Below are positions 578 to 18,712 of a stretch of 21,387 nucleotides of DNA, in pieces. The notes under the pieces were generated by a model, which did not search any database, had not been told where the DNA came from, and saw only the letters and a program-made list of their open reading frames with translations. A program made the translations under genes and the position numbers. Location of the stretch: positions 1 through 21,387 of IMG/VR virus record IMGVR_UViG_3300006928_000119. The stretch is one strand, 5' to 3'. Positions within the stretch are counted from its first letter, which is position 1. Each line of letters starts with the position of its first letter. This stretch comes from a virus.

Positions 578-1120
578 CCCGACTACTTACTCTCTATAGC
601 TTTAGTCTCCGACTTGTTCTCAATAGTTATACCCGACTTAGATCCTAATAAGTCCTGGAGTCTCCTCTCTACTTCTTCCCGACTCATCTGATCTATCTTC
701 CCGTGCAATACTTCCCGACGATCAACGATAAGTCCTCCGACTTTAAGCAACAATCCTTGAGCCTGTATAGCTGCGTTAAAAGCTCCCCGACCCCAAGCAT
801 CATCTCTTAGCTTATACAGATCTTCAACTGCACGCTCATGCGTGAGTTCAAACTTCTTCTTAGCTTCCGACATCAAGCGTTCATACTCCCGACGAACGTG
901 AGCGTATTTACTTTCTTCATTCTTACGCATCAGTCTCCCGACGACGACTGGATTCTTATACCCTGCTTTCTTGGCCGCTTCTGCAAACGTCAACTGTGGA
1001 TCGTTGACTGCGTTCCAGACTAGCAATCGTTGTCTTTTCGTTAATTGTTTTTCGTCGTGGTTTAGATATTCAATAGGCATATCTTCTGTATCTTCTAATG
1101 TTTTATCAATCGTTACCGAC
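578..1120 (-). repeat. Cluster of 11 same-orientation GTCGG(G) sites in terS (candidate pac region)
   Basis: On the plus strand CCGAC occurs with its 6-mer at 578-583, 608-613, 632-637, 678-683, 714-719, 736-741, 786-791, 866-871, 888-893, 937-942 and 1115-1120. Seven are CCCGAC, three TCCGAC and one ACCGAC, all in one orientation (GTCGG on the terS coding strand). I count only about as many GTCGG/CCGAC sites in the other 20.8 kb. The copies fall in all three codon phases (xGT CGG four times, GTC GGx twice, xxG TCG Gxx four times) and one spans the stop codon, so protein sequence does not explain them. In P22, SPP1 and related phages the pac site lies inside the small terminase gene; that parallel is inference here. 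Confidence 0.7.
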
Positions 1121-1146
1121 TTTCGTATGTTCATGTCTCTTGGCAT
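583..1146 (-). CDS. Terminase small subunit-like protein (TerS)
   Basis: The 187-residue product has the layout of phage small terminases, which bind packaging sites on phage DNA and recruit the large terminase. Residues about 33-70 (LTKRQRLLVWNAVNDPQL, then AAKKAGYKN) match the usual N-terminal helix-turn-helix of the type 'K/RQ..F....NP..T.AEAA..AGY'. A long helical middle about 80-145 follows (GAFNAAIQAQGLLLKVGGLIV), then the 'MSREEVERRLQDLL' helix typical of these proteins. The start could be ATG 1146 or the ATG four codons later; neither has a strong Shine-Dalgarno sequence. It is the last gene of a leftward run of small genes, far from the visible virion genes, and terL is not in the window. 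The gene is peppered with GTCGG motifs (separate entry). TerS identity is inferred from motif pattern only. Confidence 0.7.
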   Translation of the reverse strand: MPRDMNIRKSVTIDKTLEDTEDMPIEYLNHDEKQLTKRQRLLVWNAVNDPQLTFAEAAKKAGYKNPVVVGRLMRKNEESKYAHVRREYERLMSEAKKKFELTHERAVEDLYKLRDDAWGRGAFNAAIQAQGLLLKVGGLIVDRREVLHGKIDQMSREEVERRLQDLLGSKSGITIENKSETKAIESK

Positions 1147-3985: not shown

Positions 3986-4173
3986 AGGAAATTAATTTAC
4001 CTAAAGATAAATATTTGCAAGCAAAAAAAGATACAAGAATAACTGCTAGAGCCAATCAAGAATATCAAGATAAATTAAAAGAAATGTCTAAGACTTATAA
4101 ATTGGCAGAAGGAGTTTTGCTTTCTTATATGATTGATTATTTTTATGAAGAATTAATTGGAGAAAAAAAATGA
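3982..4173 (+). CDS. Ribbon-helix-helix-like protein (63 aa)
   Basis: The start is GTG 3982, overlapping the upstream TGA, with GAGGA upstream. The product fits the ribbon-helix-helix plan of Arc/CopG-type DNA-binding proteins: a short strand TRITARAN (about 18-25), a first helix QEYQDKLKEMSKTYK (about 26-40), a turn, then a second hydrophobic helix EGVLLSYMIDYFYEEL (about 43-58). Such proteins dimerise through the strand and often repress their own operon. It overlaps the next gene by four bases (ATGA). Fold assignment is by pattern only; the target is unknown, and the inverted repeats in the control regions are one possibility. Confidence 0.5.
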   Translation: MKEINLPKDKYLQAKKDTRITARANQEYQDKLKEMSKTYKLAEGVLLSYMIDYFYEELIGEKK

Positions 4174-5006
4174 AACAAATACCAGAATTACTAGAATACG
4201 ACCCTATAGAGAAGGGTGACGCGATTGTTATTAGAGAAATACCAAACGAACTATATCATTCAGAACTGGGCATCAGCTCTAGTTTTGTACGTAAGTTTGG
4301 CGAATCGCAAATACACGCCGTTGAAACGGAACAAGAAACCACCCCCGCAATGAACTTTGGTACTGCTGCCCACTACATGTTAGTAGAAGGCGAGGCCGTA
4401 TTTAATGACAACGTAGGCGTGATCGTTGGATCTCCCTACACCAAAGTAAGTAAGGATTTAAAACAAGACTTTATAGATCGCGGGCTGGTAGTTATTAATG
4501 AAAAGGATTACCTGTCTATAGAAGGTATGGCATCCAATATCATCCCAGAAGCGGATATGTATTTGAACGGTGAGGGCAAGATAGCGGAAGCGTCTTTTTA
4601 TTGGTATGAGGACGACGTGCTTTGTAAGTGTAGACCTGACGTTATATGCAATCCGCAAGGACCACATCAGGATTTTGAGATTGTAGCGGTGGATTACAAG
4701 ACCACTTACAGTTGCAGTCCTGAATCATTCTTAGAATCCGTACTGAAATACGGATACGCGCAACAAGCCGCTTGGTATAGAAGAGGATTAGAAGCTGCGG
4801 GTTACAGAGTTAAAGAGTTTGTATTCGTTGCGCAAGAAAAGAAAGAACCTTACGCAAGCAAGATATTTAAGATAACCGATAAGCAAATGGACAAAGCCTG
4901 GTTAGATATGAAGGATATGTTGGAGTCTTATAAGAAATACCTTAAAGGAACTAAACCTACCATTCATAACAGTCCGAATATCGTTACGCTTGAATTAGAA
5001 GAATAA
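4170..5006 (+). CDS. PD-(D/E)XK exonuclease, RecE/Cas4-like (DUF3799 type)
   Basis: The 278-residue protein has the motifs of phage RecE/exonuclease VIII-like nucleases, which resect double-stranded ends to make 3' single strands for annealing. There is an N-terminal 'LGISSSFVRKF' (about 33-43); the 'MNFGTAAHYML' helix with G64 and H68; the metal-binding D157 in CRPDV; the core 'VAVDYKTT' with D175 and K177; and the 'YAQQAAWYRRGL' helix (about 196-207) with the conserved Gln. It overlaps its neighbours by four bases and one base. Together with the Sak4-like ATPase at 7291-8010 it would form an exonuclease/annealase pair. All catalytic residues appear present. Family membership is quite secure; specificity is not. 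Confidence 0.85.
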   Translation: MKQIPELLEYDPIEKGDAIVIREIPNELYHSELGISSSFVRKFGESQIHAVETEQETTPAMNFGTAAHYMLVEGEAVFNDNVGVIVGSPYTKVSKDLKQDFIDRGLVVINEKDYLSIEGMASNIIPEADMYLNGEGKIAEASFYWYEDDVLCKCRPDVICNPQGPHQDFEIVAVDYKTTYSCSPESFLESVLKYGYAQQAAWYRRGLEAAGYRVKEFVFVAQEKKEPYASKIFKITDKQMDKAWLDMKDMLESYKKYLKGTKPTIHNSPNIVTLELEE

Positions 5007-6331
5007 TGGCCAGATTGAAAAATGAGGACCGATTGTGTGGGGCTTTTTACCAGGCACACAGTTTTTTGGATTTTAATTTAAAGACTCATAACCAAAACAC
5101 AGGTCCTTTATCCGAAGCAAAAATGCTTGGTATAAACTTGCCAGGCGTTATGCGTTATCGTGAACAAGCCACTGAGTATGATGCAAGACTTTTGGACATT
5201 TACCAAAAACTTTGCAAACAAGAATATGATTTGTGGATGGATTCTTTGAAGTTTCAATTTAAAGCAACTTTGTTGCATGAGATTTTGCCACCCAAACAAA
5301 TATTGAATGAATTTTTCGGAGATCTCCATATACGAGTGCCGCACGAAAAAACTTTACTTATATCTGATAGGGGGGGTGCCACCACAATTATGTCGGTACA
5401 AGAACACAAAACAGATCAATTCATTAAAGATGTAAAAAAAGCGAATAAAAAAAGCGGCTTGTTTGCTACCGATGTAGGTTTACGAAAATTATTGAAGCAA
5501 ATCAAAAATTGGAAAACAGAATCGGTTTTGGTTTGCAGAGTGACGTTCGCACACAATATGTCTAAAGAAGAGATATATAAACCAAAGCGTTTTAAGAGAA
5601 AAACTTTGGAAACTATGACCAGACCCACAACAGCGCATTATCCTACAAATCTTGTGTTTCCTTGTGGCCTCACTATTAAAGAAACACAAAATTGCACACC
5701 TGTAATCATAGAAGATGTCCAGCAATTTATTAACGAAAAAGATTATGGTTTGTTTAGCGCAATGGTTTTTCCATACAGCAGTAAACCCATTGAGGGCAAT
5801 TATTTGCAGTGGGACCATACTGAGAAAGAAACGTTAAAGGATAAACTTTGGAAGAGAATGAACAAAAGGTGGAAAATGGAAGAAGAATCTTATGTTCCCC
5901 CAAGAAACAATTTGTGGCGAGCTGCATTACAAACTTTGGTGCATATATCTGTATTAACGCACCCAGATTTTAAAGAGTTTTGTGTAAACATGCTAAAAAA
6001 AGACGGTATGCAACCTAACAAAACACCATACAACAAAGACAATCCTTACAAGAGCCGTCCTGGCTGGCGTCCAGCTTTTGAGCATTACGTAGTAACAATA
6101 AATGTGCCAGATGATGTTAGTAAAGAAGCAGACGCTAGTACACATAAAAAACGTCATCATTTGGTGCGTGGTCATTTAATGAGATCGCATAGTGAAAATT
6201 CAACTGACGGTTTTGTGTGGCGCAGATCTCACTGGAGAGGCAACAAAGAAATAGGTACTGTAACAAAAGATTATGTTATGGATATAGACGAAAGAATTAA
6301 TAAACAAGAAAGAAAGCAAGTTAATGGCTAA
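5006..6331 (+). CDS. Unknown protein with C-terminal VRGH...HWRG motif (441 aa)
   Basis: ATG 5006 overlaps the previous stop. The N-terminal part (1-110) is helical; the centre is mixed and contains a Gly-Gly turn (SDRGGATT) encoded across a G7 run. The C-terminal 60 residues carry 'KKRHHLVRGHLMRS' and 'WRRSHWRGNKEIG' followed by a KDYVMD segment. That His/Arg-rich pair of motifs (VRGH...HxRG) recurs at the C-terminus of uncharacterised phage proteins as I recall, and the His spacing could bind metal or phosphate. I recognise no enzyme family for the rest. It lies between an exonuclease and a resolvase-like nuclease, so a role in DNA processing is plausible but unproven. Confidence 0.6.
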   Translation: MARLKNEDRLCGAFYQAHSFLDFNLKTHNQNTGPLSEAKMLGINLPGVMRYREQATEYDARLLDIYQKLCKQEYDLWMDSLKFQFKATLLHEILPPKQILNEFFGDLHIRVPHEKTLLISDRGGATTIMSVQEHKTDQFIKDVKKANKKSGLFATDVGLRKLLKQIKNWKTESVLVCRVTFAHNMSKEEIYKPKRFKRKTLETMTRPTTAHYPTNLVFPCGLTIKETQNCTPVIIEDVQQFINEKDYGLFSAMVFPYSSKPIEGNYLQWDHTEKETLKDKLWKRMNKRWKMEEESYVPPRNNLWRAALQTLVHISVLTHPDFKEFCVNMLKKDGMQPNKTPYNKDNPYKSRPGWRPAFEHYVVTINVPDDVSKEADASTHKKRHHLVRGHLMRSHSENSTDGFVWRRSHWRGNKEIGTVTKDYVMDIDERINKQERKQVNG

Positions 6332-6731
6332 AATAAATTCCAGAAACAAAGGCGCTCAGTTTGAAAGAGACGTTGTACGTATACTCAATAACTTCTTTAT
6401 AGAGGAAGGGATAGATTACCAAACTAAACGCAACCTAGACCAATACCAACAGAAAGATCTTTGCGATCTACAAATACCACACCATTCAATAGAATGTAAG
6501 TTCTACAAAGAGGGAGATTGGCTAAAATCTGCTTGGTGGGACCAGGTGTGTAAGGCCAGCGAAGATAATATACCTGTACTTATATTCAAATTTAATCGTC
6601 GTCCCATTCGTGTATGTATTCCTTTATACGCAATAAATACCGAGTGGGTTAAAGACAATCAAGCCATAGCAATTATGGCTATAGACGATTGGTTATCCGT
6701 TCTGAAAACTAACTGGAAATCATACTCTTAA
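6324..6731 (+). CDS. Hjc-like PD-(D/E)XK nuclease (putative Holliday junction resolvase)
   Basis: The 135-residue protein has the compact resolvase layout: a basic start then 'KGAQFERDVVRIL' with E14, an acidic D48 in DLCDLQ, and the 'IECKFY' motif with E57 and K59. A 'WWDQVCKAS' helix and a strand 'PVLIFKFNRRP' follow, as in phage Hjc/VRR-type nucleases that cut branched DNA. The length is normal for the group. It overlaps the upstream gene by eight bases and is the last gene of the rightward early operon, facing the DUF669 gene. The nuclease fold is well supported; junction specificity is inferred. Confidence 0.75.
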   Translation: MAKINSRNKGAQFERDVVRILNNFFIEEGIDYQTKRNLDQYQQKDLCDLQIPHHSIECKFYKEGDWLKSAWWDQVCKASEDNIPVLIFKFNRRPIRVCIPLYAINTEWVKDNQAIAIMAIDDWLSVLKTNWKSYS

Positions 6732-6739
6732 AGGAAAGT

Positions 6740-6775
6740 GCTAGGTTGAGCGTTGCGCTCTGGACGACTCCTAGC
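6740..6775. other. Nested stem-loop between convergent genes
   Basis: GCTAGG (6740-6745) pairs with CCTAGC (6770-6775), and inside it GAGCG (6748-6752) pairs with CGCTC (6756-6760) around a TTG loop. It sits in the 57-base gap between two convergent genes, the expected place for a terminator, but the nearest T run (6786-6790) is ten bases past the outer stem. It may be a weak bidirectional terminator or an RNA end-structure. Confidence 0.4.
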
Positions 6776-6788
6776 GTAGCCGATGTTT

Positions 6789-7298
6789 TTAAAGTGAAGG
6801 TTTGCTGGGGGCAGACGCATCACTTTTGGAAGAATCCTTAGACTCGCCCATACTTGGAGGAAGATCAGCTGCTTTTGGAGCTGCCGCTTTTTCCAAAGGT
6901 TTAAATCCTACGATTCTATTGCTATCACCGTAATCAGAACCTTCTTCTGCTTCTTCTACCGCAACCGACACAATAAACGCCTTCTGGTGTAAATCGTGCG
7001 CACTTTTTGGAGGATTGTCGTTACCAAAGCCTAACGCTTTGCATAATCTGGCCCAATCCGCTTTAGCGTATCCTAAATGCTCTTGGTTTTCCGCCCAAAG
7101 CATGAATGGCTTACGCAAGATCCAACCCGCGTAATTGTCGCCAGTTATTTCTACTTCAAGCCATATCATGTCGTTACCCGCTTGAGATTTCTTTTTCTCG
7201 CACGTAGTAACTACACAAGGATAGTCACCTTTTGGAATTGCGGTATTGTCACTACCCGCATCATCTATATTAAAATCAAATCCATCAAAATCACTCAT
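6789..7298 (-). CDS. DUF669-like phage protein (169 aa), candidate ssDNA-binding partner
   Basis: The start is ATG 7298 (MSDFDGFDF), because GGAGG lies nine bases upstream. The TTG at 7322 is not needed. The body resembles phage DUF669 proteins: 'AIPKGDYPCVVTTCEKKKSQAGNDM' style strands with a basic turn, 'WLEVEITGD', then 'YAKADWARLCKALGFG', followed by a strand-rich half ending SNRIVGFKPLEK. The last 35 residues are a low-complexity Ala/Pro/Ser/Lys tail. DUF669 genes regularly sit beside Sak4-like ATPases, and an ssDNA-binding role has been suggested for several. Here it overlaps that ATPase gene's stop codon. The family call is good; the biochemical role is inferred. Confidence 0.7.
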   Translation of the reverse strand: MSDFDGFDFNIDDAGSDNTAIPKGDYPCVVTTCEKKKSQAGNDMIWLEVEITGDNYAGWILRKPFMLWAENQEHLGYAKADWARLCKALGFGNDNPPKSAHDLHQKAFIVSVAVEEAEEGSDYGDSNRIVGFKPLEKAAAPKAADLPPSMGESKDSSKSDASAPSKPSL

Positions 7299-8010
7299 TT
7301 GTCTGCACCTCCGCAAATCCAAGTTTATTAATAATAGTAGTTAGATCAGGGGATTCAAACTCTTCTAACTTACCGCTACGATCTTTGGCAATGTAATTTT
7401 GACCAATTCTCGTTTGTAACCAACGAGAGGTTACGGTTTTACCTTCTTCATTTTCATCGTCAAATGTACGCAAGACCAATACCTCATCAAAGAAGTATGG
7501 TATTTGCGTTGGCAGTTTAGCGCCAACCATCATCGGCTGATAATGAAACATGCCCGAAGATTCATCGCGTTCCCTACTTTGTTTAGCGATAAATACCACG
7601 TGCATCGGAAGGTCCCTAAATCTACGCATCGTTTTAATCATCACTTCGATGACCTCTCCGTACGCACGTCTAGGATCTTTGCTTTTTGCCTTCTCTTGCG
7701 ACAATAAAATTTCGGCCATTTCTGTCACACTATCTAAGCAAACAGTTTCATAGTTCAAAGTTTTATTCTCTAAGAGCGAAGCAATTTCTTCTATTTCAGA
7801 AGCTTCCTTAACCTCAATAGCATCAAGGTCAGGAGCATCTTTAATAGAAAGTAAACCACTCTCCATACTAACGACCAATGTTTTACCAGGTGCCGTTTGA
7901 CAGAGTGTAGTTTTACCCGCACCACTTTCACCGTAGACCAACAGCTTCGCGCCTTGCTGTTCTACAAGTTGGTTTGGGGTTTTAATACGATCTTTTATAC
8001 TATCGTTCAT
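7291..8010 (-). CDS. Sak4-like RecA-fold ATPase (phage AAA, recombination)
   Basis: The 239-residue protein has a Walker A 'GESGAGKTT' (27-35), a strand ending 'VVSMESG' (about 46-52), a Walker B-like 'VCLDSVTEM' with D93, and a 'HVVFIAKQSRE' sensor segment (about 137-147). This is the layout of the short RecA-like phage ATPases (Sak4/AAA_24 type) that assist single-strand annealing and strand exchange. ATG 8010 is preceded by GGAGAAAG. It is followed by the DUF669 gene in an overlapping pair and is transcribed away from the HTH gene. With the RecE-like exonuclease it would make a recombination pathway. ATPase fold near certain; annealase role inferred from family. Confidence 0.82.
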   Translation of the reverse strand: MNDSIKDRIKTPNQLVEQQGAKLLVYGESGAGKTTLCQTAPGKTLVVSMESGLLSIKDAPDLDAIEVKEASEIEEIASLLENKTLNYETVCLDSVTEMAEILLSQEKAKSKDPRRAYGEVIEVMIKTMRRFRDLPMHVVFIAKQSRERDESSGMFHYQPMMVGAKLPTQIPYFFDEVLVLRTFDDENEEGKTVTSRWLQTRIGQNYIAKDRSGKLEEFESPDLTTIINKLGFAEVQTNE

Positions 8011-8027
8011 ATTACTTTCTCCAAAAG

Positions 8028-8109
8028 TTGTTAATAAAAAAGTTTTCGTTTACAATGTGTTGAAAACTTAATTAATACGTATTGTAAACATGAACAAAGC
8101 AAAAAACAA
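8028..8109. promoter_or_regulatory. Face-to-face overlapping promoters with GTTTACAAT operator arms
   Basis: GTTTACAAT (8048-8056) and ATTGTAAAC (8081-8089) are perfect nine-base inverted arms 24 bases apart. Each arm contains a TACAAT -10 box: rightward TTGTTA (8028-8033), 17 bases, TACAAT (8051-8056); leftward TTGTTT (complement of 8104-8109), 17 bases, TACAAT (complement of 8081-8086). The two promoters would fire through each other, giving a mutually exclusive switch that a protein bound to the arms could set. A/T-rich DNA yields chance promoter matches, so the arms are the stronger evidence. Confidence 0.5.
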
Positions 8110-8437
8110 GAACCAATGGAAGATAAATTATCTTTATCGTCAACAACAACTATTGGAGAAGGACCTGATGACTTTATACCAAGAAGGACTGGAACCAGAA
8201 TATAAGGAGCGTGAAGTGGAACGAATAACACTAAAACAGTATATTGAATTTATAGGGATAGAACCAGCCGCAGAATTATTTGGCTGCTCTACACATGCAG
8301 CAAAAGCCTGGAGGTATGGCAATAGACAACCCTCTATTGAACAGGCTAAAAAAATAATTAAAGCCTCTAACGGAAAACTAGATTTTGAAGCAATATTCGG
8401 CTCGATTGAAGAGGCTGATGAGAAAGCGGTTGAATAG
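8090..8437 (+). CDS. Helix-turn-helix regulator, Cro/CI-like
   Basis: The 115-residue frame ends with a helix-turn-helix region at about residues 50-95: 'QYIEFIGIEPAAELFGCSTH' then 'AAKAWRYGNRQPS' and 'EQAKKIIKAS'. This matches the Cro/CI layout with a recognition helix around STHAAKAWRYG. ATG 8090 abuts the operator arm and has no Shine-Dalgarno sequence. ATG 8168 (residue 27) has GGAG nine bases upstream and may be the real start; it would keep the whole DNA-binding region. It lies in a divergent control region whose half-sites also occur at 3153-3168, so it is the natural autoregulator and early switch. The GTG of the next gene overlaps its stop. Confidence 0.65.
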   Translation: MNKAKNKNQWKINYLYRQQQLLEKDLMTLYQEGLEPEYKEREVERITLKQYIEFIGIEPAAELFGCSTHAAKAWRYGNRQPSIEQAKKIIKASNGKLDFEAIFGSIEEADEKAVE

Positions 8438-10557
8438 TGTTAGACGTCAAAGCATCTGCGCAGGATTCTGCGTTGGAGCTTGCTCTTGCTTACGCGGAAA
8501 GTGGCTACACGCCAGTACCATTATTAAGACATAATAAAGTACCACCCAAAGAACTCGGGGGGTGGCAACAATACAAAGAGCGACAACCGACGACGGAAGA
8601 AATAACTCGGTGGTTTAAGAACCGCGATGATTTAGTCGTAGCTTTAATCTGCGGTAAATTCATAGTGGTTGACGCAGACACACCAGAAGCCTGTATATGG
8701 GCAGAAAAGAATTTACCAAACACTCCTTGCAAAGTAGTTACAGGCAAGGGGATGCACTACTACTATAACAACCCAGAGAACTACACTACTTACGTAGCGA
8801 GAAGAACAGACACGTCAGATCCCGCAAAACTTATTGATATAAGAGGAGTGGGTGGATTAATTATTGCTCCTTATAACATTCACGCAACTGGGGCCATATA
8901 CGAACCAAAATTTTTAGACGGGTGGGATTGGCATGACACCAGCGATTTGCCTGACTTAACAAAAGAACATTGGGTGATGATTACGGGCGTTGACAAAGTT
9001 AACGGCAAATCAATTACATCACCTTTCTCAATAGAAGGTGTAGTACAAGGAAGCCGTAACGATAGCGCGGCAAGGTTAGCTGGGAATCTAATAGCTAAGA
9101 ACGTCAGTATAGAAATGGTGGAATTTTTTGTTCAATCTTGGAATCAACAGAACAAACCCCCCTTACCAAGATCGGAAATATCTACTACAGTTAACTCTAT
9201 ATTAAAAACACACGAAAGAAAGAACCAACAGGCTCCAGCTTTTATACAACGCACTTACAACGTGAAAGAACCAACCGATTTATACAACCCTCCAGGCATT
9301 ATTAAAGATGTGTATGACTATTCGGAAAAAATAGCGCAGATACCGCAACCAGCTTTATCCATGCAAACATCACTTGCGCTCGGTTCAGTAGCGCTTGGAA
9401 GAATGTATAGAACGGATATGAATAATTTTAGTTCTATGTTCTTTATGTGTATTGCAAAATCAGGGCAAGGCAAGGAAAACGTAAAGACAGTAATGGAATC
9501 TGTTTTAGACGGAGCTGGGTACGCTGACATAATGGCTGGTGACGGATACACCTCAAGTGGTGCCGTATATAGTTTATTGCGTCATAAACCTACACACGTG
9601 ACCGTAATGGACGAATTTGGTAAAAGGCTAGAGTCTATATCAAAATCAACCAATTCAAATAAAGAGGACGCTATACAGGTCCTTATGGAGACGTGGGGGC
9701 GTTGTCATGGAACGATTAGGCCAGATAACTACTCTATGATGACTTTGACTCAAAAACAGCAACAGGAGGCCCTAGATCGCTCTACAATCAAACCAGCTAT
9801 AACGTTGGTCGGTATGTCTGTACCAAGAAACTTTTACGGAGCTTTATCAACAGGACGTATCGTGGACGGATTTTTAAATCGTTTTATAGTGGTTGAATCT
9901 AAATTACCCAGAAGCGTTAGCCGAATGGTCCCTTTCGTAGAGCCTTCTCACGCTATATGCGAGTGGGTTCGTAAAGTTAGAGAAACCAAAAATGAAATTG
10001 AGCAGATTGCTAGGGATAATTCAGAGGTAGATTTTAAACAACGATTAGTAAAATTTGATGACCATTCTAAGGATCTACTTAATAAACTTGCTTATGAATT
10101 GGTCGATCAACAAAATAAATTAGAAAAAGACGGTTTAGAAGTATTACTGTCTAGAACCAGAGAGAAGGCCATGCGTTTAGCTTTAATATGCGCAGTAGCA
10201 GAGAATCCATATACCAATGTAATTAAAGGTGATATAACCCAATGGGCAATAGATTATGTTTATTACTACGATCAGGTAATGGTAGCTACGTGTGAAGATA
10301 AAGTGGCTGGGTCTGAAATGGAAAGCCGTATTAAACAGGTGTTGAGTTTTATCAGGACGCAAGGAGAAATGGGTATTAGTCGTCGTGATATAGACAGGCG
10401 AGAATTGTTTAGATCAATGAAATCTTTTGAAGTAAAAGAAATAATTAATCGTTTGATGAACGCTGGAGAGATACAAGAAAAAGACGTACGAGTAAAAGCA
10501 ACAGGGCGACCTATGAAAAGAATAGTCGCTATAGATCCTAATTTTTTCGATGACTAA
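8437..10557 (+). CDS. Primase-polymerase / DUF3987-type helicase fusion
   Basis: GTG 8437 overlaps the preceding stop (TAGTG). The 706-residue protein starts with a bifunctional primase-polymerase domain (about 10-170): 'GYTPVPLL', the metal-binding D79/D81 in FIVVDADTP, H107 in 'GKGMHYYY', and D134 in 'IDIRG'. A primase C-terminal-like helical part follows (about 205-262, GSRNDSAARLAGNLI). The second half is a DUF3987-like ATPase with Walker A 'AKSGQGKE' (340-347) and Walker B 'VMDEFG' (390-395), then a winged-helix-like end (GISRRDIDRRELF). It would synthesise primers and unwind DNA for phage replication. This is the only replicase-type gene in the window; no family A or B DNA polymerase is seen. 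Confidence 0.88.
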   Translation: MLDVKASAQDSALELALAYAESGYTPVPLLRHNKVPPKELGGWQQYKERQPTTEEITRWFKNRDDLVVALICGKFIVVDADTPEACIWAEKNLPNTPCKVVTGKGMHYYYNNPENYTTYVARRTDTSDPAKLIDIRGVGGLIIAPYNIHATGAIYEPKFLDGWDWHDTSDLPDLTKEHWVMITGVDKVNGKSITSPFSIEGVVQGSRNDSAARLAGNLIAKNVSIEMVEFFVQSWNQQNKPPLPRSEISTTVNSILKTHERKNQQAPAFIQRTYNVKEPTDLYNPPGIIKDVYDYSEKIAQIPQPALSMQTSLALGSVALGRMYRTDMNNFSSMFFMCIAKSGQGKENVKTVMESVLDGAGYADIMAGDGYTSSGAVYSLLRHKPTHVTVMDEFGKRLESISKSTNSNKEDAIQVLMETWGRCHGTIRPDNYSMMTLTQKQQQEALDRSTIKPAITLVGMSVPRNFYGALSTGRIVDGFLNRFIVVESKLPRSVSRMVPFVEPSHAICEWVRKVRETKNEIEQIARDNSEVDFKQRLVKFDDHSKDLLNKLAYELVDQQNKLEKDGLEVLLSRTREKAMRLALICAVAENPYTNVIKGDITQWAIDYVYYYDQVMVATCEDKVAGSEMESRIKQVLSFIRTQGEMGISRRDIDRRELFRSMKSFEVKEIINRLMNAGEIQEKDVRVKATGRPMKRIVAIDPNFFDD

Positions 10558-10798
10558 AGAGACAAAAAGAATGATTTATGAAATGGCATCTATTTGGTTT
10601 TATATGTTAATGCTATTAACAATTTTAACAGCCAGTGTAATTTTAGCGCCATTTATCTTTTTACATCGTATATATAAACACATATATGAAGGAGTTATTT
10701 ATGAACGCGAAACCGAAGATGGAAACGATCAGCGATCAAAAGCGCGAGGAGCGCGTCGCTGGATTTATAGAAGGATTATGGGGCGTAAGATGTCATAA
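10550..10798 (+). CDS. Single-pass membrane protein (82 aa)
   Basis: ATG 10550 overlaps the primase stop (ATGACTAA). Residues about 15-38 form a strong hydrophobic segment (SIWFYMLMLLTILTASVILA) flanked by charged residues, followed by a Lys/Arg-rich tail. It could be a phage membrane protein such as a small holin-like or anchoring protein, but nothing specific identifies it. Its last 98 bases overlap the next gene in another frame, so the true C-terminus is less certain than the N-terminal membrane segment. The basic tail suggests that the C-terminus lies in the cytoplasm. Confidence 0.5.
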   Translation: MTKETKRMIYEMASIWFYMLMLLTILTASVILAPFIFLHRIYKHIYEGVIYERETEDGNDQRSKARGARRWIYRRIMGRKMS

Positions 10799-11168
10799 GT
10801 TACCAGTTAGTTACGGCTTAGATTATTGGTGTGAAAGCCAAGAAAGTTCTTTCTGGCTAGAAGTTAAATGCCGTAGTTTTGGTATAGATAAATACGATAC
10901 CTTGTTATTAAGTGCTTCTAAATTACGAATGGGAGCTGCGTTATCTTTGGCAACTAATAGGCCATTTGTTTTAGTATTTGCAATGACTGATAGTGTGTAT
11001 TCACACACTTGGGATAAAGACAAAATCTACGATGTGCGTTTCGGTACGATAGCAGAACCGCAATTGCCAGAAGATTCAGAACCGTACGTACATTTAAGTA
11101 AAGAGGAATTGGTTTGTTTATCTGAACACCCGTTAGGGTTTGATCGGGAAGAATTGGGACTTACTTAA
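10701..11168 (+). CDS. PD-(D/E)XK nuclease-like protein (155 aa)
   Basis: I chose ATG 10701, which has AAGGAG seven bases upstream, over the ATG at 10686 that precedes this site. The fold signature is visible: an N-terminal helix with EER (about 16-18), 'SYGLDYWCE' with D41, then 'FWLEVKCRSFG' with E54 and K56, and a 'LLLSASKLRMG' helix followed by the strand 'PFVLVFAMTD'. This is the D-x12-E-x-K core of restriction-endonuclease-like proteins, as in several phage Holliday junction or single-strand-specific nucleases. It is the last gene of the rightward replication operon, and its stop overlaps the stop of the convergent 1026-residue gene. Substrate unknown. Confidence 0.65.
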   Translation: MNAKPKMETISDQKREERVAGFIEGLWGVRCHKLPVSYGLDYWCESQESSFWLEVKCRSFGIDKYDTLLLSASKLRMGAALSLATNRPFVLVFAMTDSVYSHTWDKDKIYDVRFGTIAEPQLPEDSEPYVHLSKEELVCLSEHPLGFDREELGLT

Positions 11169-14100
11169 ACTAAACCAGCTATACCAGCTCGTCTAGCAGC
11201 TATATCTTCGTTAGCTATAGATCCACCCAACAAACTTCTGCTTATGGGCATTTGATTAGGTTGCGTAAGTGCTATTGGTTGGACTTTTGGTATTTCTAAA
11301 CCTCTACTAATTGGTTTGGCTACTTGATCTATTATCTGTTTTGTTTGTTCTCTGAGATTAGGAACTTGCTCTATAACCCCAGAATCTCTTAGATTTCTTT
11401 CAACATCTTCTGCTCCTTCAGCAGTGCTTCTGCCTAAAGTTGAAAAGCCACCCAGTCTAATTGCTTTTTCTACTGCGTCTAAAACTTCACCCATCGCAGT
11501 TTTATCTGTTCTAGACATCAAGCTTACTATTCTTGGATTAGCAAACAGTGTTTTATAGATTGTTAATGTCGCAACTGTAGGTAATAGGTTTAAGTTAAAG
11601 AAACCTGCGGCAAGCGTTCCTGCTACAATTGAACCAGCTCCAGTTTTTTCAGCTCCTGATACTGTAACATTCATCGCTCTTGCAAATCCTTTAAGGGCCA
11701 TTTTTAAATCTTTACCAAACATCGCCTCTAGTGTTTCATCTCCGTAAGAATCTAAAGCCCTTTGAAAGTTACCAGGTTTAAATATTTCTGTTAAGTCTGA
11801 CCCTCCTGGCGTAACTCCTTTCTTAATCAATTGCTCTAATGCTTCATCTTGCACATTTAAAAAAGCTTCTTCAGTCACTTGATTTTTAACTTGATTAATG
11901 GAAGCCGCGCTGTTGGGCCTAAATACAACTTGAGCTATTGTTTCTGGCGTAGCGTTTTCTACGTTGGTTAAAATTTTTGATTGCTCAAATCTAAGCAATT
12001 CATCACTTGCTTTTGCTTTGGTTTCTAAAGTTTCTAAAAAACTATTAAATCCAGGTCCAAATTCCCCACCAGCATTTAATCTTATGTCGTCGGCTAATTT
12101 TGCTACTTCTTCTGGTCTTAATTTAGGACTGTATTTATTAAATTGATTTAAAACAGACATCATCTTTTCGTAATTTTGGCCCAGCAATGGTCTTAATGTA
12201 GATCCATATTGAGTAATATTCTTTACGTATTTTGAAGGATTAAAAACACCAGTAACAGGATCAGTTGCTGTATCAACAGCGTCCTTGAAAAGCCTTCTCG
12301 TTAATTCTGTTTTTAATTTTTCAGCTTTTACAATTTGAACAGGAGGCCCTGCTTGCCCCTGACGTAAACCGCCTCTTGTTAAAGCATTTAGAACATTTTG
12401 CATACCAGTGGCATCATTTTTTGTCAGTATGTGTCTATAAACATCTGGAGCAAGAACTGCGTTTCGTTGTGAATCTGTTATTATTTTTTGAGTAATTTGA
12501 TTATTAAAAGGTTCCATATCTTTAAAATATTGAGCATTTATATTTCTTAGTCTTTCAACCGTTTGTTTTAATACGCTTTGTTGCGGAGTGGCTAAAAGCC
12601 TACCCTCGTATAAAAGTTTATTTGGTGCATCTGTAATAATATCATCTACTTTTTTTAAAACTGCACTCAAAAATTCGCCCGTTTTCCCACTTACTAACCC
12701 ACTAGCTAATTGAGTATCAATTAAAGCAGAACGTATCTCAATTAAATCACTTAATGTTGCACCGTCTTTGTATGCTCCTTTTTGAATCTCTTTACTTAAA
12801 CCTTGCAAAACACCAAGATCAGTGTCGTCTTGTCTATATTTAAGCAGCGGACTTTTACTCTTCAATACATCGTCTATGTATTTACCTACACCTGTCAAGT
12901 CGGCTTTTATTCTTCCTTCAAAACCTTGATTTATTTCAAAATTTCTAATTGCGCTAAAGGCATCATCGTAATCTGCTCTGAAATTATTTATCATTGATTT
13001 ATAAGAGTTTTTCATTGTGTCTTGCACACTCTTACCTAAAGCAGCGCTGTCCATTGCTTCCATAATAGGACCAAAGCTCCCTGTCTCAGAAGATAGATCT
13101 CCCATCATTTTATTAAGGTAGTTTGATACGTCTTTTTCAGCTGATTTTAATTTATCTCTAGCTATCCTTATTTCACCTGATGCAGCGCCCGTTCCTTGAA
13201 AATTAGAAAATTCTTTTGCGGCGGCTCTTTTTGCTGCTAATTTTTCTTGTAATTTTGCTAGTGCTGCCATGTTGTAATTTATAAGACCTCTTTCTCTACC
13301 TTGCTTACCAGCTATAGTCTCACCAATCCCTTGCATCCTTCCTGGTATGGCTCTACCTAAAAACTGTTGACTGACTGCGCCTTTGGAACCTAATTCTTTA
13401 ACATCTCCTTTTTTGACCGCTTTGGCTATTTCTTTTTCATTAGCCATCCTACCAAGTTTTTCGTCGAGTCTTAGCACATCATCCATGTCGTAACCTTTAC
13501 TGACCACGTATGCGTCTCTTATATCTGGAACAGGGGCCTTCTTACCGAAAAAAGCGTGAAAGCCAGTACCTATTAATTCTCCAGCTCCTTGACCTCCAAA
13601 ACCCCATTTAAACTCTCTCCATAATAAGTCTCCTAATTCCTCTCTGTCCTGTAGCTGCACCTCTTGTTGGGTTTCAAACGCTTCTTCTCCACCCTTTCCC
13701 AAAGCAGTACCTGCACCAGCAGCTAACATCCTTGCCAATCTTTCATTAAGAACTAATTTTTTTAATAGACCTACTGCTCTAAGGTGTGGTGAAAGAGTAG
13801 CTATAGCTCCGAATACAGGACCTACTACTCCAGAAAAATCAGCAAAATCGCCCGAAGCATATCCAGTCTCATCTATAACTACGTTTTTATCGGTGTAATC
13901 ATCTTGCTCATATAAGCCTTGCTCTATTAAACTTTTTTGCCCGTCAGGAGTAATTGCTAGTTCGCCTTTAGTATTGTAAGTAAAACCTTCGGGTCCAATA
14001 TAATTAAGCAGAACTTGTTCTTTTTCTATCTCTCTACCGCGTTGATCTCTTTTTTCTGCTAAACCTAGAAAACCTCTAAGCTTCATATTCTTTAAACCCG

Positions 14101-14245
14101 TATCGTAATCAAAATTAAGTTTATCGTAAGCTTCAGACCCTACTCTTTTATTTACTTCTTCATTCGCTTTTTGGATAGCTTCTTCTTCATTCTTAGCTTC
14201 AACCCTGACAATTACATCTTCTGCTAACTTTACGTCGTATTTCAT
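11165..14245 (-). CDS. Large internal virion / ejection-type protein (1026 aa)
   Basis: This is the largest gene here. It opens with a small alpha/beta segment (MKYDVKLAEDVIVRVEAKN), then a hydrophobic Gly/Ala/Leu-rich stretch at about 130-235 (SGVVGPVFGAIATLSPHLRA, then AAGAGTALGKGGEEAF), then a long helical Lys/Glu/Gln/Asn-rich body, and a second hydrophobic stretch near 880-920 (GSIVAGTLAAGFFNLNLL). That pattern fits podovirus internal virion proteins that form a conduit through the envelope during DNA ejection. No lysozyme or transglycosylase motif is apparent. It ends the leftward virion operon, overlaps its upstream neighbour (TAATG) and lacks any terminator before the convergent gene. 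The role is inferred from size, composition and position. Confidence 0.6.
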   Translation of the reverse strand: MKYDVKLAEDVIVRVEAKNEEEAIQKANEEVNKRVGSEAYDKLNFDYDTGLKNMKLRGFLGLAEKRDQRGREIEKEQVLLNYIGPEGFTYNTKGELAITPDGQKSLIEQGLYEQDDYTDKNVVIDETGYASGDFADFSGVVGPVFGAIATLSPHLRAVGLLKKLVLNERLARMLAAGAGTALGKGGEEAFETQQEVQLQDREELGDLLWREFKWGFGGQGAGELIGTGFHAFFGKKAPVPDIRDAYVVSKGYDMDDVLRLDEKLGRMANEKEIAKAVKKGDVKELGSKGAVSQQFLGRAIPGRMQGIGETIAGKQGRERGLINYNMAALAKLQEKLAAKRAAAKEFSNFQGTGAASGEIRIARDKLKSAEKDVSNYLNKMMGDLSSETGSFGPIMEAMDSAALGKSVQDTMKNSYKSMINNFRADYDDAFSAIRNFEINQGFEGRIKADLTGVGKYIDDVLKSKSPLLKYRQDDTDLGVLQGLSKEIQKGAYKDGATLSDLIEIRSALIDTQLASGLVSGKTGEFLSAVLKKVDDIITDAPNKLLYEGRLLATPQQSVLKQTVERLRNINAQYFKDMEPFNNQITQKIITDSQRNAVLAPDVYRHILTKNDATGMQNVLNALTRGGLRQGQAGPPVQIVKAEKLKTELTRRLFKDAVDTATDPVTGVFNPSKYVKNITQYGSTLRPLLGQNYEKMMSVLNQFNKYSPKLRPEEVAKLADDIRLNAGGEFGPGFNSFLETLETKAKASDELLRFEQSKILTNVENATPETIAQVVFRPNSAASINQVKNQVTEEAFLNVQDEALEQLIKKGVTPGGSDLTEIFKPGNFQRALDSYGDETLEAMFGKDLKMALKGFARAMNVTVSGAEKTGAGSIVAGTLAAGFFNLNLLPTVATLTIYKTLFANPRIVSLMSRTDKTAMGEVLDAVEKAIRLGGFSTLGRSTAEGAEDVERNLRDSGVIEQVPNLREQTKQIIDQVAKPISRGLEIPKVQPIALTQPNQMPISRSLLGGSIANEDIAARRAGIAGLV

Positions 14246-16305
14246 TATTTTGTCGTGTCTATAAAGGTAACACCTGGAGTGGGAGTGTAAGATGTTGAGG
14301 TACCTTGAGGTAAGGTTTGTCCCAATTCACTCATAAATATTGTAACTACCTCTTGATCTAACGGTGCTTCATTTCCGTATGGGGCTAAGAAAATAACTGA
14401 AGCTTTAATGTTTCTTTGCGCTTCATTTTTCTTTTGAACAATACTTTTTATATTGTCCTCCAATCTGTTTCTTACTTCCTCAACACTTTGTATTGTGCTT
14501 AAATTTAAGTTACCAACTATTCGTTGCGCTATATCCCTATCAATATTTGATATGGTTCTTCCTGACTCTCCTAATATTTCTTTAATGTTCCTATTAGTAA
14601 GTATGTCTAATGCTATTTGCGCTCTTTTAGTATCTGAAAGCTCTCCAGGATTTCCTGTAAATGCTTTTTGTAGATCTGAAACTTTAGCTCCAATTTTAGC
14701 TGCGAAAGTAGTGAGGTCTGCATTTTGTGCAAAATCTATAACTGATCGTGCTAATTCTTCAGCCGCAATGGCGTTGTTATAATCTCTTACACTAGCGTTC
14801 ATATCTGTTCTAACTTGGAGTATGTCTTTTCTGTCTTTAAGATCTAACCCTCCAGATTTCATCATTTCTTTCAGTAATTCTGCTTGTCTTTCTTTTTCTG
14901 CCCTTTCCTCAACGGCCTTTTCTTCAGCCGCAGCCGCAGAACCTAAAGCAATACCTTTTCCCATTTCGCCAGTAGTGACTAAACCTTTACCTACGTTTCT
15001 AACAAATCTAATAAAGTCGGGGCTACGTGTAAATTCAGCAAAAGTGGTTTCTTGCGTTTTAGGTACAGAAGGAAGAGTTTCACCTTCAGCACCTTTTTTA
15101 TCATCTCCAGGCACTTCTTGTCTTTCTGGATCACCCGAAGTGGCCGCCGCATCAGCTGCTGCCGCTTCAGCCTCTAGTCTTTCTGCCTCTTCTTGCGCTG
15201 CTTGTTCTTCTTCAGTAGGTAAAAATTCTTCTGGAGGAATGACATCTGTTGGTACTTGTTCTTCTTCAACAATATCAATTTCTGTTAAATCTTTTGCTAT
15301 AGAATCTTCTTCTGTTCCTGCGGCCTGTAAAACGATATTATCAATTACTTCAGGACTAAATCCACCCCTGGCTATATACCCTTCTTCAAATTCTCCTTCA
15401 AAAATTTCTCTAGTTTTATCTGCGGCTTTTTTCCCGCCAAAAATATCAACTAAAAATGGTGCTGTTCTTTCAAGCGTTTCTCTACCAACATCCAGTCCCC
15501 CTTTAATCGCAGAAACTATACCGCTTCCGAAATCTTCAGGACCCCATCCCGTCCCTCTTCTTTCATCGAGCGTCGCTCCTCCCCAGCCAGTACCAAGCCA
15601 GCTAAGACCTCGAAGGAGACCTGGTTCGTCATCTGTGATAAATTGTTTTAAAGCTTCATCTACTCCAGCTCCTCTTTCTATATCGGGTGAATTAAAAATA
15701 CGATAAAGCTGTAATCCTTTTCCTCTACCTTCTTGTATATCTTTTATACCCTGAGTAAAATCAACAATCCTACCGTCACTTAATCTAATTTCATTTGGTC
15801 CCAGTTCTCTGCTTTCAACTTCAGGTAGTCCAGTTTCTACTAATCCAGTTCCGCCTAACAACTCATCTATATCTAAAGATAAATCAATGGGGGGTTGGCT
15901 TGCGGGGTTTAAAGTTTCGCCTTGTTGAGTATAGGTACCAAGTCTAGGATCAAGAGAAGGATCGGCTGGTGGTAAACGATCAGGTGCTATATCTGGATTC
16001 ACGTTAAAAGGAGCAACGCCTATTTGGTCTATTCTACTAGGATCTAATGGCCTATTTGGACCTACAAACGTAGGATCGGTTTTTGCTTTTCCACCAACTT
16101 GTTGCGCAATCCTTTCTATAGTTGCCATCCCCAAATCTGATGGCATTTGTAAACCTTTGGATGCGTAATCGGCTTGTAATAATTCAAATATTTCTATAGG
16201 TGCTAATCCACTTAATGACAAATTGGCTATTTGTGCGGTTACGTCAACAAGAGGGGAATTGGCAACATCCCCGTTAGCAAACATTTTTCTTTGAAGTACA
16301 TTCAT
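14245..16305 (-). CDS. Structural protein with acidic Glu/Ala-rich linker (686 aa)
   Basis: The N-terminus 'KMFANGDVANS' is a short motif I associate with virion proteins of marine phages. Residues about 75-180 are Pro/Asp-rich, about 190-315 look folded (RLSDGRIVDF, WLGTGWGGATLDERR), about 330-410 form an acidic low-complexity Glu/Ala/Asp/Thr linker, and 430-686 form a helical C-terminal domain with alternating Asn/Lys/Glu helices. No enzyme motif is visible. The arrangement next to the 1026-residue protein suggests another internal or tail-associated protein. The start has no strong competitor: the upstream gene's stop lies six bases away. A specific function is not claimed. Confidence 0.55.
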   Translation of the reverse strand: MNVLQRKMFANGDVANSPLVDVTAQIANLSLSGLAPIEIFELLQADYASKGLQMPSDLGMATIERIAQQVGGKAKTDPTFVGPNRPLDPSRIDQIGVAPFNVNPDIAPDRLPPADPSLDPRLGTYTQQGETLNPASQPPIDLSLDIDELLGGTGLVETGLPEVESRELGPNEIRLSDGRIVDFTQGIKDIQEGRGKGLQLYRIFNSPDIERGAGVDEALKQFITDDEPGLLRGLSWLGTGWGGATLDERRGTGWGPEDFGSGIVSAIKGGLDVGRETLERTAPFLVDIFGGKKAADKTREIFEGEFEEGYIARGGFSPEVIDNIVLQAAGTEEDSIAKDLTEIDIVEEEQVPTDVIPPEEFLPTEEEQAAQEEAERLEAEAAAADAAATSGDPERQEVPGDDKKGAEGETLPSVPKTQETTFAEFTRSPDFIRFVRNVGKGLVTTGEMGKGIALGSAAAAEEKAVEERAEKERQAELLKEMMKSGGLDLKDRKDILQVRTDMNASVRDYNNAIAAEELARSVIDFAQNADLTTFAAKIGAKVSDLQKAFTGNPGELSDTKRAQIALDILTNRNIKEILGESGRTISNIDRDIAQRIVGNLNLSTIQSVEEVRNRLEDNIKSIVQKKNEAQRNIKASVIFLAPYGNEAPLDQEVVTIFMSELGQTLPQGTSTSYTPTPGVTFIDTTK

Positions 16306-16310
16306 ATTTA

Positions 16311-17471
16311 TTACGTAGTTGGATTTTGCGTAGTTGGATTTTGAGAATATGGATTTTGCGTAGTTGGATTCTGCGATGAGTACGGATTAGCAAAACTTGC
16401 ATACGTATTCAAAAAGGTTCCTAAACCTTGACTTAAAGGATCAATTGGAGCGCCGTAAGTAGTACCCACTCTGGTTCCTCCTGAAACGTATTGAGGTAAG
16501 AATCCTTGTACGTAACTAGCTGCTTGCGTGGGTGCAAACCTATCTTGTACGGCTCTTTCGTATTCTCTGCCAAGTCCTACGTCTTTAACACCTCTTGCAG
16601 TAGCACCTAGTCCAGCTAATTCGCCCCTTTGGGCTGCACCTAAGTTATACGCTGTACCTCCAAGATTACCTATTTGTCCGCCATACCCAGCTACATCTTG
16701 ACCTATTGTTCTGGCAAGACCAGCTCTACGTCCGCCTATATTTCCTAATTGAGTTCCAAATCCAGCTAAATTACCTGCTAATCTTTCTCTTGCTCCAGCT
16801 TGTCTACCAAATTCACCTAAAGCTGTAGATTGGGCTTGTCCAAAGCCTCCACTTCTTATGCCAGCTAAAGCTTCTCCCAGTCCTCTGCCTAAAGATGCTC
16901 TTCTTTCATCAGCAGTTAGTCTGGCTCTAGAACCAAATGCTGACTCTCCGCCTGATTGTATGTCTCTAGCTCGTTGCGCTACGTCTTGTATATCACTTTG
17001 TTTAAATACGTCATCTATTGTTTGTTGTACGACTCTATCTTCAAACGGGTCGTAAAATTGTTTGGTAAGGTTGGGATCAAACTGCATACCAGCAGCTTGC
17101 CTAGCAACGTCAGTTGCTGCTCCTAAATAGTCTTGCTCTCCAGCAAAGTATGGTTGAGCCAGTTCACCAGCTCTACGTGACATGCCAATCCCTTCTTGTA
17201 ACCCAAATAAATTAGTATCTAGATAAGGTTGGTAAGAACCAATCCCTCCGTAAGCACCTTGCATCGCAGCTATTTCTAATGGCGACAAACCTGCGGTCTG
17301 CCTCATTATTGCTGGTTGTCCGTAAGATCTATTAGCTGCGCTAATAGCTTGAGATATTATTCCTGGAGTGTCTGGTGAACCAAAATAAGCTTCACGTACA
17401 TAAGGATCAGATATTGTTTCTTCTCTATTTATACCTGTAGTTATTGGATTAATTGGTAATGGTGCAGCCAT
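16311..17471 (-). CDS. Gly/Ala/Arg-rich virion protein with C-terminal QNPTT repeats (386 aa)
   Basis: After a short Pro-rich start (INPITTGINREETI), residues about 40-300 consist of Ala/Gly/Gln/Arg-rich helices with recurring 'AGxxAxxG' steps (GLGEALAGIRSGGFGQAQST, then LAGNLAGFGTQLGNIG). This looks like a long helical virion component such as an internal or tape-measure-like protein. The C-terminus is tandem QNPTT/QNPYS repeats encoded by 15-base units (separate entry). ATG 17471 overlaps the previous stop (TAATG). I know similar proteins from marine phage contigs without a named function. Structural role is well supported by context, the exact part is not. Confidence 0.55.
   Translation of the reverse strand: MAAPLPINPITTGINREETISDPYVREAYFGSPDTPGIISQAISAANRSYGQPAIMRQTAGLSPLEIAAMQGAYGGIGSYQPYLDTNLFGLQEGIGMSRRAGELAQPYFAGEQDYLGAATDVARQAAGMQFDPNLTKQFYDPFEDRVVQQTIDDVFKQSDIQDVAQRARDIQSGGESAFGSRARLTADERRASLGRGLGEALAGIRSGGFGQAQSTALGEFGRQAGARERLAGNLAGFGTQLGNIGGRRAGLARTIGQDVAGYGGQIGNLGGTAYNLGAAQRGELAGLGATARGVKDVGLGREYERAVQDRFAPTQAASYVQGFLPQYVSGGTRVGTTYGAPIDPLSQGLGTFLNTYASFANPYSSQNPTTQNPYSQNPTTQNPTT
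16314..16373 (-). repeat. Four tandem 15-bp units encoding QNPTT / QNPYS
   Basis: Units at 16314-16328 and 16329-16343 are identical; 16344-16358 and 16359-16373 differ at a few bases, and a diverged NPYSS unit follows at 16374-16388. The repeat is in frame and ends three bases before the stop codon, so copy number can change without breaking the gene. It most likely arose by slippage. Confidence 0.85.
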
Positions 17472-18712
17472 TATATTGCCTCAAATATGTTCATTAACTC
17501 GCGCATGTTTTCCACGCCCTTTTCTCTTGATGCTTTACCACCTGAGATTAATTCTATTCCTGATTTGGTTTTATTAACGTCAAAAGCACCCGCCCCTTTA
17601 GTAGCTGCTGCCGTCATTACAAATTCACCGTCGCTTAACATCGCTGGTATATCATCTGAAGTACCCGTTCCAGGACCTTCTGATTCACCACCGTCACGCA
17701 TGTCTATTTCAGCTACGCCACCTTTTGCGTAATACATTCTGTTGTCTATTGGACCTCCGCCCGCTACATTTAAAACAGTAGGTTTGGGGGCCAATCCAAA
17801 TTCACCTCTGGTCCCGCCTGTTCCTAATTCTTTTGATAGTTGGTATCTCCCTAATTGATCCATCATTACTTGTGGAGTTTGAGCTAATCCACCAGCTCTG
17901 CTTTTCGTATCGTCATATACAGCTTTACCAAGCAGCCCCATTAATCCTAATCCGCCCATACCGCCCATACCGCCGCCAAGACCGCCGCCTGCAAATAAAC
18001 TATTAGAAGTTGGTCCTGTTTGTCCTTTTAAAGTATCTTCAATTCCTTTAATAAATCCAGGTGTTTCTCTACCAAAAAAACTTCCTGTATTTGATGCCAT
18101 TTGATTATATTGGTCTACTGAAATCACGTTGCCATCTGCGTTCATATATCCAGTAATAGGTCCATCCATAGTGTCTGACATTGGAGTGTATTCAGAAGCA
18201 CCTCCGCCCATACCTCCGCTAAATAAACTGCCTATACCCTTTCTGATGGTTGGGCCTATAGTTCCGCCAAACATTCCTGTAGCGCCCTTGATTGGATTAA
18301 AGAATTTTCCAGCTTTAGCTAAAGTGCTACCCACGCCTGGGATACTACTTACTAAACTTCCTAAACCCCCTCCTAGCCCGCCAAGCATCCCTCCTAAAGC
18401 AGTACCAACTCCAGGTACTAACATCGCAATTGGCGCTACTTTTTTAGCTACCTTTTTAAGTGATTTAAAAGCTTTCTTAAAAAACCCAAACTCAGGTAGT
18501 CCTGTTATTGGGTTGATGGACATGCCCGAACCTACTGAATATTCATTTGGATCAAGGCCAGCGGCCCTCATCTCTTGGTTAATACGCGCTTGCGTAGAGG
18601 CTGATATTACGGGTGGTACGACACGTTCGCCCAAAGCAACGTGAGCTAGAAACTGATCTTCGTCTCTACCCAAAGAAGCTAGGCCTGTCTTGTTTGTATC
18701 TATTCTGTTCAT
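17471..18712 (-). CDS. Glycine-rich tail-associated protein (413 aa)
   Basis: Residues about 20-80 read LAHVALGERVVPP, then a Gln/Arg helix, then 'MSINPITGLPEFGF' and a Lys-rich amphipathic helix (KKAFKSLKKVAKKVAP). Glycine-rich hydrophobic stretches follow (about 95-130 and 235-260, GGGMGGMGGLGLMGLLG). The C-terminus carries 'GPGTGTSDDIPAMLSDGEFV' and 'MTAAATKGAGAF'. I have seen this N- and C-terminal pair in tail or tape-measure-like proteins of many marine phages; no experimental function is known to me. The basic helix plus Gly-rich hydrophobic parts would suit membrane contact during ejection. Start ATG 18712 is the only plausible one. Confidence 0.6.
   Translation of the reverse strand: MNRIDTNKTGLASLGRDEDQFLAHVALGERVVPPVISASTQARINQEMRAAGLDPNEYSVGSGMSINPITGLPEFGFFKKAFKSLKKVAKKVAPIAMLVPGVGTALGGMLGGLGGGLGSLVSSIPGVGSTLAKAGKFFNPIKGATGMFGGTIGPTIRKGIGSLFSGGMGGGASEYTPMSDTMDGPITGYMNADGNVISVDQYNQMASNTGSFFGRETPGFIKGIEDTLKGQTGPTSNSLFAGGGLGGGMGGMGGLGLMGLLGKAVYDDTKSRAGGLAQTPQVMMDQLGRYQLSKELGTGGTRGEFGLAPKPTVLNVAGGGPIDNRMYYAKGGVAEIDMRDGGESEGPGTGTSDDIPAMLSDGEFVMTAAATKGAGAFDVNKTKSGIELISGGKASREKGVENMRELMNIFEAI

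Follow-up and report, generated by a model that had tools for sequence, protein, structure and literature searches.

How the small terminase subunit chooses phage DNA has been called elusive and controversial (PMC9611059). The pac site of phage P1 is built from the hexamer TGATCA/G, present in seven copies inside the small-terminase gene pacA, and synonymous changes to these hexamers reduced the titre about 9-fold (PMC10028697). In SPP1, direct repeats of the pac region surround the start of terS, and the helix-turn-helix (HTH) of the SF6 small terminase (TerS) binds DNA without sequence preference (PMC4737164). P22 pac is a 22-bp asymmetric site within terS (PMC9611059), while the HK97 TerS ring, sliding along DNA, uses its N- and C-terminal segments to read a polar site (PMC11331095).

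The locus described here lies in a viral contig of 21,387 nucleotides, all of which was analysed (the window), and consists of a GTCGG(G) array at 578-1120 on the minus strand, written through the gene for a small terminase subunit (terS, 583-1146, minus strand, 187 residues; assigned from the open reading frame call and the family matches of its relatives). We consider it likely, with a probability of roughly two in three, that this array belongs to an extended, polar, multi-copy pac-type recognition region read by TerS in marine tailed phages. As expected of a pac site, the array lies in or adjoins terS and is conserved as DNA. It resembles P1 pac in being a repeated short word inside the small-terminase gene, and the site inside that gene is also a likeness to P22. 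The SPP1/SF6 pac region (pacL-pacC-pacR) likewise overlaps the small-terminase gene and has direct repeats, and its TerS is of the same Terminase_2/SF6 sequence family.

Relative to these known sites, what is new is the length, the copy number, the strict polarity, the islands that extend as far as terL and the change of word from clade to clade, in a region whose role in packaging we infer. P1 pac spans 161 bp, whereas the present array has 11 GTCGG over 543 bp and extends in relatives, with islands, to as much as ~8 kb. The initial annotation had placed the copy number far above that of described pac sites; with seven hexamers in pacA a many-copy pac is not unprecedented, but the present array is larger. 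Each P1 hexamer holds a Dam-methylation site, whereas GTCGGG and GCTTG(A), the word of a related clade, contain no GATC and so do not share this P1 feature; unlike P1 pac, the array also keeps strictly to one orientation and its word switches between clades. The repeats of SPP1/SF6 pac are few, belong to several kinds and surround a single cut site, in contrast to the long array of one word seen here, and terS and terL are adjacent in SPP1 but roughly 4-10 kb apart in the present phages. P22 has a single short site and HK97, a cohesive-end packager, one cos site, as against the many copies of the present array. A zone of ~8 kb is far longer than the pac sites of the cited literature, which counts against the pac reading. 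No relevant paper was returned when the literature was searched for GTCGGG together with phage and terminase.

Recounting the window gave the same 11 GTCGG, seven of them GTCGGG and all in one orientation, that the initial annotation had reported, with 10 rather than about 11 further copies in the rest of the window (both strands counted). Site 1 (1116-1120, phase 2) reads GTCGG followed by T, and site 2 (938-942, phase 0, GTCGGG) is common to relatives. There follow sites 3 (889-893, phase 1, GTCGGG), 4 (867-871, phase 2, GTCGGA), 5 (787-791, phase 1, GTCGGG) and 6 (737-741, phase 0, GTCGGA), then sites 7 (715-719) and 8 (679-683), both GTCGGG in phase 1 and retained by most relatives. Sites 9 (633-637, GTCGGG) and 10 (609-613, GTCGGA) are in phase 2, and site 11 (579-583, GTCGGG) lies over the terS stop codon, where many relatives keep it (alignment site 563). 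All eleven are on the minus strand. The ten within-gene sites are distributed 2/4/4 over codon phases 0/1/2, with one further site across the stop codon, and the claim that the word occurs in all three phases therefore holds. The array zone is truncated in the window, as the contig ends 582 bases past terS.

The whole-window total of GTCGG is unremarkable (21 against a shuffle mean of 14.5, with 5 of 100 shuffles reaching 21); the exceptional feature is the clustering. Within 578-1120, 11 GTCGG compare with a dinucleotide-shuffle mean of 0.68 (maximum 5; 0 of 3000 reach 11), and seven GTCGGG with a mean of 0.14. Synonymous-codon shuffling of terS gave a mean of 2.8 GTCGG against 10 observed and 0.85 GTCGGG against 6 observed, neither observed count being reached in 20,000 shuffles, and under this null GTCGG and GTCGGG were the top 5-mer and 6-mer of the window terS. 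The array is thus non-random and non-coding in origin, and the proposal of selection at the DNA level is well supported. The opposing view, that codon usage, conserved peptides or strand skew generate the word, can point to several sites within the conserved peptides VRREY, DRREV and MSREE; it is refuted by the codon shuffles, by codons under the motif that are nearly fixed where others vary, by dense intergenic islands and by the lesser enrichment of one-mismatch core variants, and we regard it as scarcely credible.

Conservation was assessed among relatives of the window (clade A), which like the other clades were sampled as fragmentary metagenome contigs. Every clade-A relative checked keeps the array, with 584 GTCGGG on the terS strand and 6 on the opposite strand across 54 dereplicated loci. 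GTCGGG tops the 6-mer enrichment in a set of 34 dereplicated clade-A terS genes (198 against 29.9 expected), and in the terS alignment it occupies 23 distinct positions in all three codon phases. Nearly all members carry the word at some of these positions, and one or two members at others; because occupancy differs in this way, word sites are gained and lost while the array persists. At sixfold-degenerate codons with a conserved amino acid, entropy is 0.42 under the motif versus 1.79 elsewhere (for example, a serine codon is TCG in 30 of 30), a result that is supportive rather than conclusive by itself since it comes from seven conserved motif columns. Two outcomes named beforehand as refuting the initial interpretation, a codon null with similar counts and homologues lacking the word, were thus not what was found within clade A. 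Separately, the one-base variant TTCGGG forms clusters of eight in the zone of the clade-A members L133, L145 and L159.

Longer relatives carry the word beyond terS as well, with no change of strand: islands, each with a few to several closely set copies, extend over roughly 8 kb up to terL. The initial annotation described an array written through terS, but the array is not confined to that gene: islands run towards terL, and in a more distant clade (E) the array lies just 3′ of terS. The word is largely confined to the interval from terS to terL; one contig (G016) has 11 copies in this zone and zero elsewhere in 35 kb. Here terL and portal were recognised by PHROG_38 and PHROG_1216, and zone boundaries are approximate where a contig lacks terL. 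Across twelve long contigs the density of GTCGGG is 6.8/kb in terS, 5.0/kb in intergenic DNA and 0.85-1.9/kb in other open reading frames of the zone. With one-mismatch variants and the opposite strand as controls for strand composition, the zones of eight contigs held 129 GTCGGG on the plus strand and 1 on the minus strand (expectation 1.4 per strand), and variants of the GTCGG core with one base changed were not comparably enriched. Unbiased ranking of zone k-mers put GTCGGG at the top in each of seven further long contigs as well as in G001, G003 and G010; in G011 it came second, behind its own overlap TCGGGA. The same strand asymmetry of 129 to 1 excludes hairpin arms, and terminator hairpins were rejected on this basis. 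No common period was found in the spacing of GTCGGG (gaps of 5, 7, 8, 12, 22, 36 and others), so helical phasing was discarded, and a search for a wider motif around the word found zero information beyond the six bases.

Although both strands of the zone carry genes, the word keeps to one; the array is accordingly a DNA element whose orientation is fixed with respect to the genome axis. This bears on the idea that GUCGGG repeats act in a terS-to-terL transcript, for example in antitermination or translation control. Such an RNA signal would agree with the words lying on the sense strand of terS and terL in clades A, D and E, and with some islands adjoining terminator-like T runs. It is nevertheless improbable, given that orientation is unchanged inside minus-strand open reading frames of the zone (54 copies on the plus strand versus 2 on the minus strand) and that the array of another clade (B) opposes terS and the local small genes and runs with terL.

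The window TerS (P0001) itself had no match in Pfam or PHROG. Its relatives did: 30 of the 44 that were aligned matched Pfam Terminase_2 (PF03592), and the TerS of clades B-E matched PHROG_51 (terminase small subunit). A family HMM searched against the PDB matched the DNA-binding domains of SF6 TerS (4zc3/3zqp/2cmp, E 9e-6 to 3e-5). Judged by these sequence matches, the P0001 family is a small terminase of the Terminase_2/SF6-like type. The structure model of the window protein (pLDDT 67) shows short helices at 37-48, 54-61 and 66-74 followed by longer helices, and the predicted three short helices at 37-74 would fit, as expected, the N-terminal HTH of a TerS; a fold search with this model of modest quality gave no significant PDB match. 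None of the bacterial genomes searched encodes a P0001 relative, and a search of phage records for isolates of the GTCGGG clades found none.

A protein-free scan for three close GTCGGG copies in 2.9 million viral contigs recovered contigs with TerS relatives of 28-53% identity, as well as many high-GC matches without such a gene pattern. In clade D (TerS ~50% identity; about 50-55% to the window protein) GTCGGG islands lie 2-4 kb past terS, and in clade E (TerS ~30% identity) some 10-20 copies begin just 3′ of terS, partly inside a small overlapping open reading frame. Orientation is again maintained, with 242 GTCGGG on the plus strand and 11 on the minus strand in dereplicated clade D loci, and 545 and 33, respectively, in those of clade E. 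The word is specific to the clade. In clade B (relatives of the SAR11 phage HTVC027P) GTCGGG is almost absent, and the stretch between terS and terL holds GCTTG(A) in dense arrays that keep a strict 7-bp period; clustering of GCTTG was seen in 39 of the 42 loci, and none of the distant DNA showed it. The terS of clade B points the other way from terL, and it is the strand of terL that carries the GCTTG array. Locus L314, sister to clade B in the TerL tree, likewise carries GCTTG, and because of this its small GTCGGG cluster was judged incidental. The GCTTG arrays at HTVC027P 16506-17733 and L314 4175-4303 lie partly inside small annotated open reading frames on the opposite strand.

The most that clade F (HTVC023P) shows is a short CTAGGA cluster, and clade C loci showed no clear comparable array; the absent or weak arrays of these two clades count against the pac reading. 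In HTVC023P (L083) six CTAGGA at 11597-11764 lie immediately upstream of terS, on the same strand as terL, and recur in relatives, so CTAGGA is possibly a third word, belonging to relatives of HTVC023P. These phages also speak to whether the words are Chi-like sites, that is, oriented words for a host recombination/exonuclease complex that would guard the concatemer end left by the packaging cut. Oriented words of the Chi kind protect a free DNA end from such a complex, and the strict single orientation and the several islands about 1-1.5 kb apart near the presumed cut would suit this function. HTVC027P and HTVC023P, however, are recorded on one host strain and the GCTTG array is present in HTVC027P only, which disfavours a word set by the host (as far as clades B and F are compared), and the word is largely restricted to one zone, as in G016. 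We therefore hold a Chi-like role to be unlikely.

To identify what the word is inherited with, shared genes were compared between clades (open reading frames of at least 50 aa, E 1e-6, a cut-off that would miss a common reader of very small size or very high divergence). Clades A/D and E have terS, terL, portal, capsid and other structural genes in common, but not their replication genes. The PolA/primase/helicase module of clade E is instead common to B and F, and partly to C, and the word differs between E and B despite this common replication module. GTCGGG is thus inherited with the packaging and structural module and not with replication, which disfavours a replication origin in which the words would be iterons for a phage replication initiator. 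An origin is not without appeal: the words are short and repeated, some in a gene and others in mostly non-coding islands, and SPP1 oriL has direct repeats inside the gene of its origin-binding protein (PMC6316719). The same word nevertheless accompanies different replication genes in A/D (Prim-Pol, Sak4, exonuclease VIII) and E (PolA, primase, helicase), different words accompany common replication genes in E and B, and the arrays adjoin terS and not initiator genes. The word is therefore not inherited with a replication initiator in the manner of iterons, and this explanation has little chance of being correct.

Since the common word tracks packaging and structural genes, and phages with one replication module or one host strain differ in word, the packaging machinery is most likely its reader, and the proposed link of the array to packaging is well supported. 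The TerL tree supports A+D firmly (100/99) and the joining of E to A+D moderately (85/80); on this phylogeny it is plausible that GTCGGG arose once. Within the packaging machinery TerS is the natural candidate for the reader. Its HTH recognition helix is not conserved among A, D and E, which have one word, so direct reading by that helix is unsupported, and covariation of HTH and word was rejected because the helix does not change in step with the word. The nearest relative with a solved structure, SF6 TerS, has a non-specific HTH, and this too counts against a word read by the HTH. By analogy with HK97, reading by terminal segments during sliding would suit a polar, irregularly spaced word.

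Taken together, these results are consistent with a model of pac-type recognition in which a short word recurs many times in one strand, throughout terS and, among relatives, also in islands on the way to terL. The TerS ring, together with TerL, would recognise phage concatemer DNA via the density and direction of the word; TerS/TerL would load at the array, and TerL would cut in or near the zone and then package towards terL and the structural genes. TerS binding to known pac sites has been weak and hard to measure. A more specific version is possible, although on balance doubtful: that words of 5-6 bp over up to ~8 kb are read cumulatively by a moving TerS ring and are private to each clade (GTCGGG, GCTTG, possibly CTAGGA), preventing cross-packaging. 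If so, a phage would leave the DNA of its relatives unpackaged, also in the case of the two that are found on one SAR11 strain. These phages offer a natural series with the same layout and different words, including one isolate (HTVC027P), that would make the recognition question testable, and the words provide a sequence tag by which packaging sites, cross-packaging and satellites could be found among uncultured marine phages.

Several further features of the contigs were recorded. A tRNA scan of the contigs examined found none. Terminal overlap was seen in one contig only, the clade D genome G015 (54742 bp, L602-L604), whose ends are identical over 148 bases; this genome therefore assembles as a circle, and the overlap is consistent with circular assembly only. 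By hand count, of 19 clade-A contigs longer than 20 kb, nine stop no more than 4 kb downstream of terS and one stops no more than 4 kb upstream; these may be genuine DNA ends, or the assemblies may have broken at repeats or in hypervariable DNA. Other words are also concentrated in individual zones: the palindrome GGATCC occurs nine times in the zone of G001 (L085, about 5683-14448) and twice elsewhere, while the terS-terL zone of L104 (DSL-LC04, 11911-17546) has 60 and 32 GGCCG per strand against 8.7 expected, with CGGCCG also enriched. Oriented GTCGGG arrays without a detected TerS on the contig stretch were found at L250 1088-1203 and L336 163-310; L336 is similar to clade E and L250 (56% GC) not clearly so, and the two may represent a further clade or a satellite. 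In the window, positions 4170-10557 form a replication/recombination module, with genes for an exonuclease VIII-like protein (4170-5006, plus strand), a Sak4-like annealing protein (7291-8010, minus strand) and a Prim-Pol/DUF3987 primase (8437-10557, plus strand), and a gene for a 2OG-Fe(II) oxygenase-like protein (18752-19531, minus strand) lies amid the structural genes.
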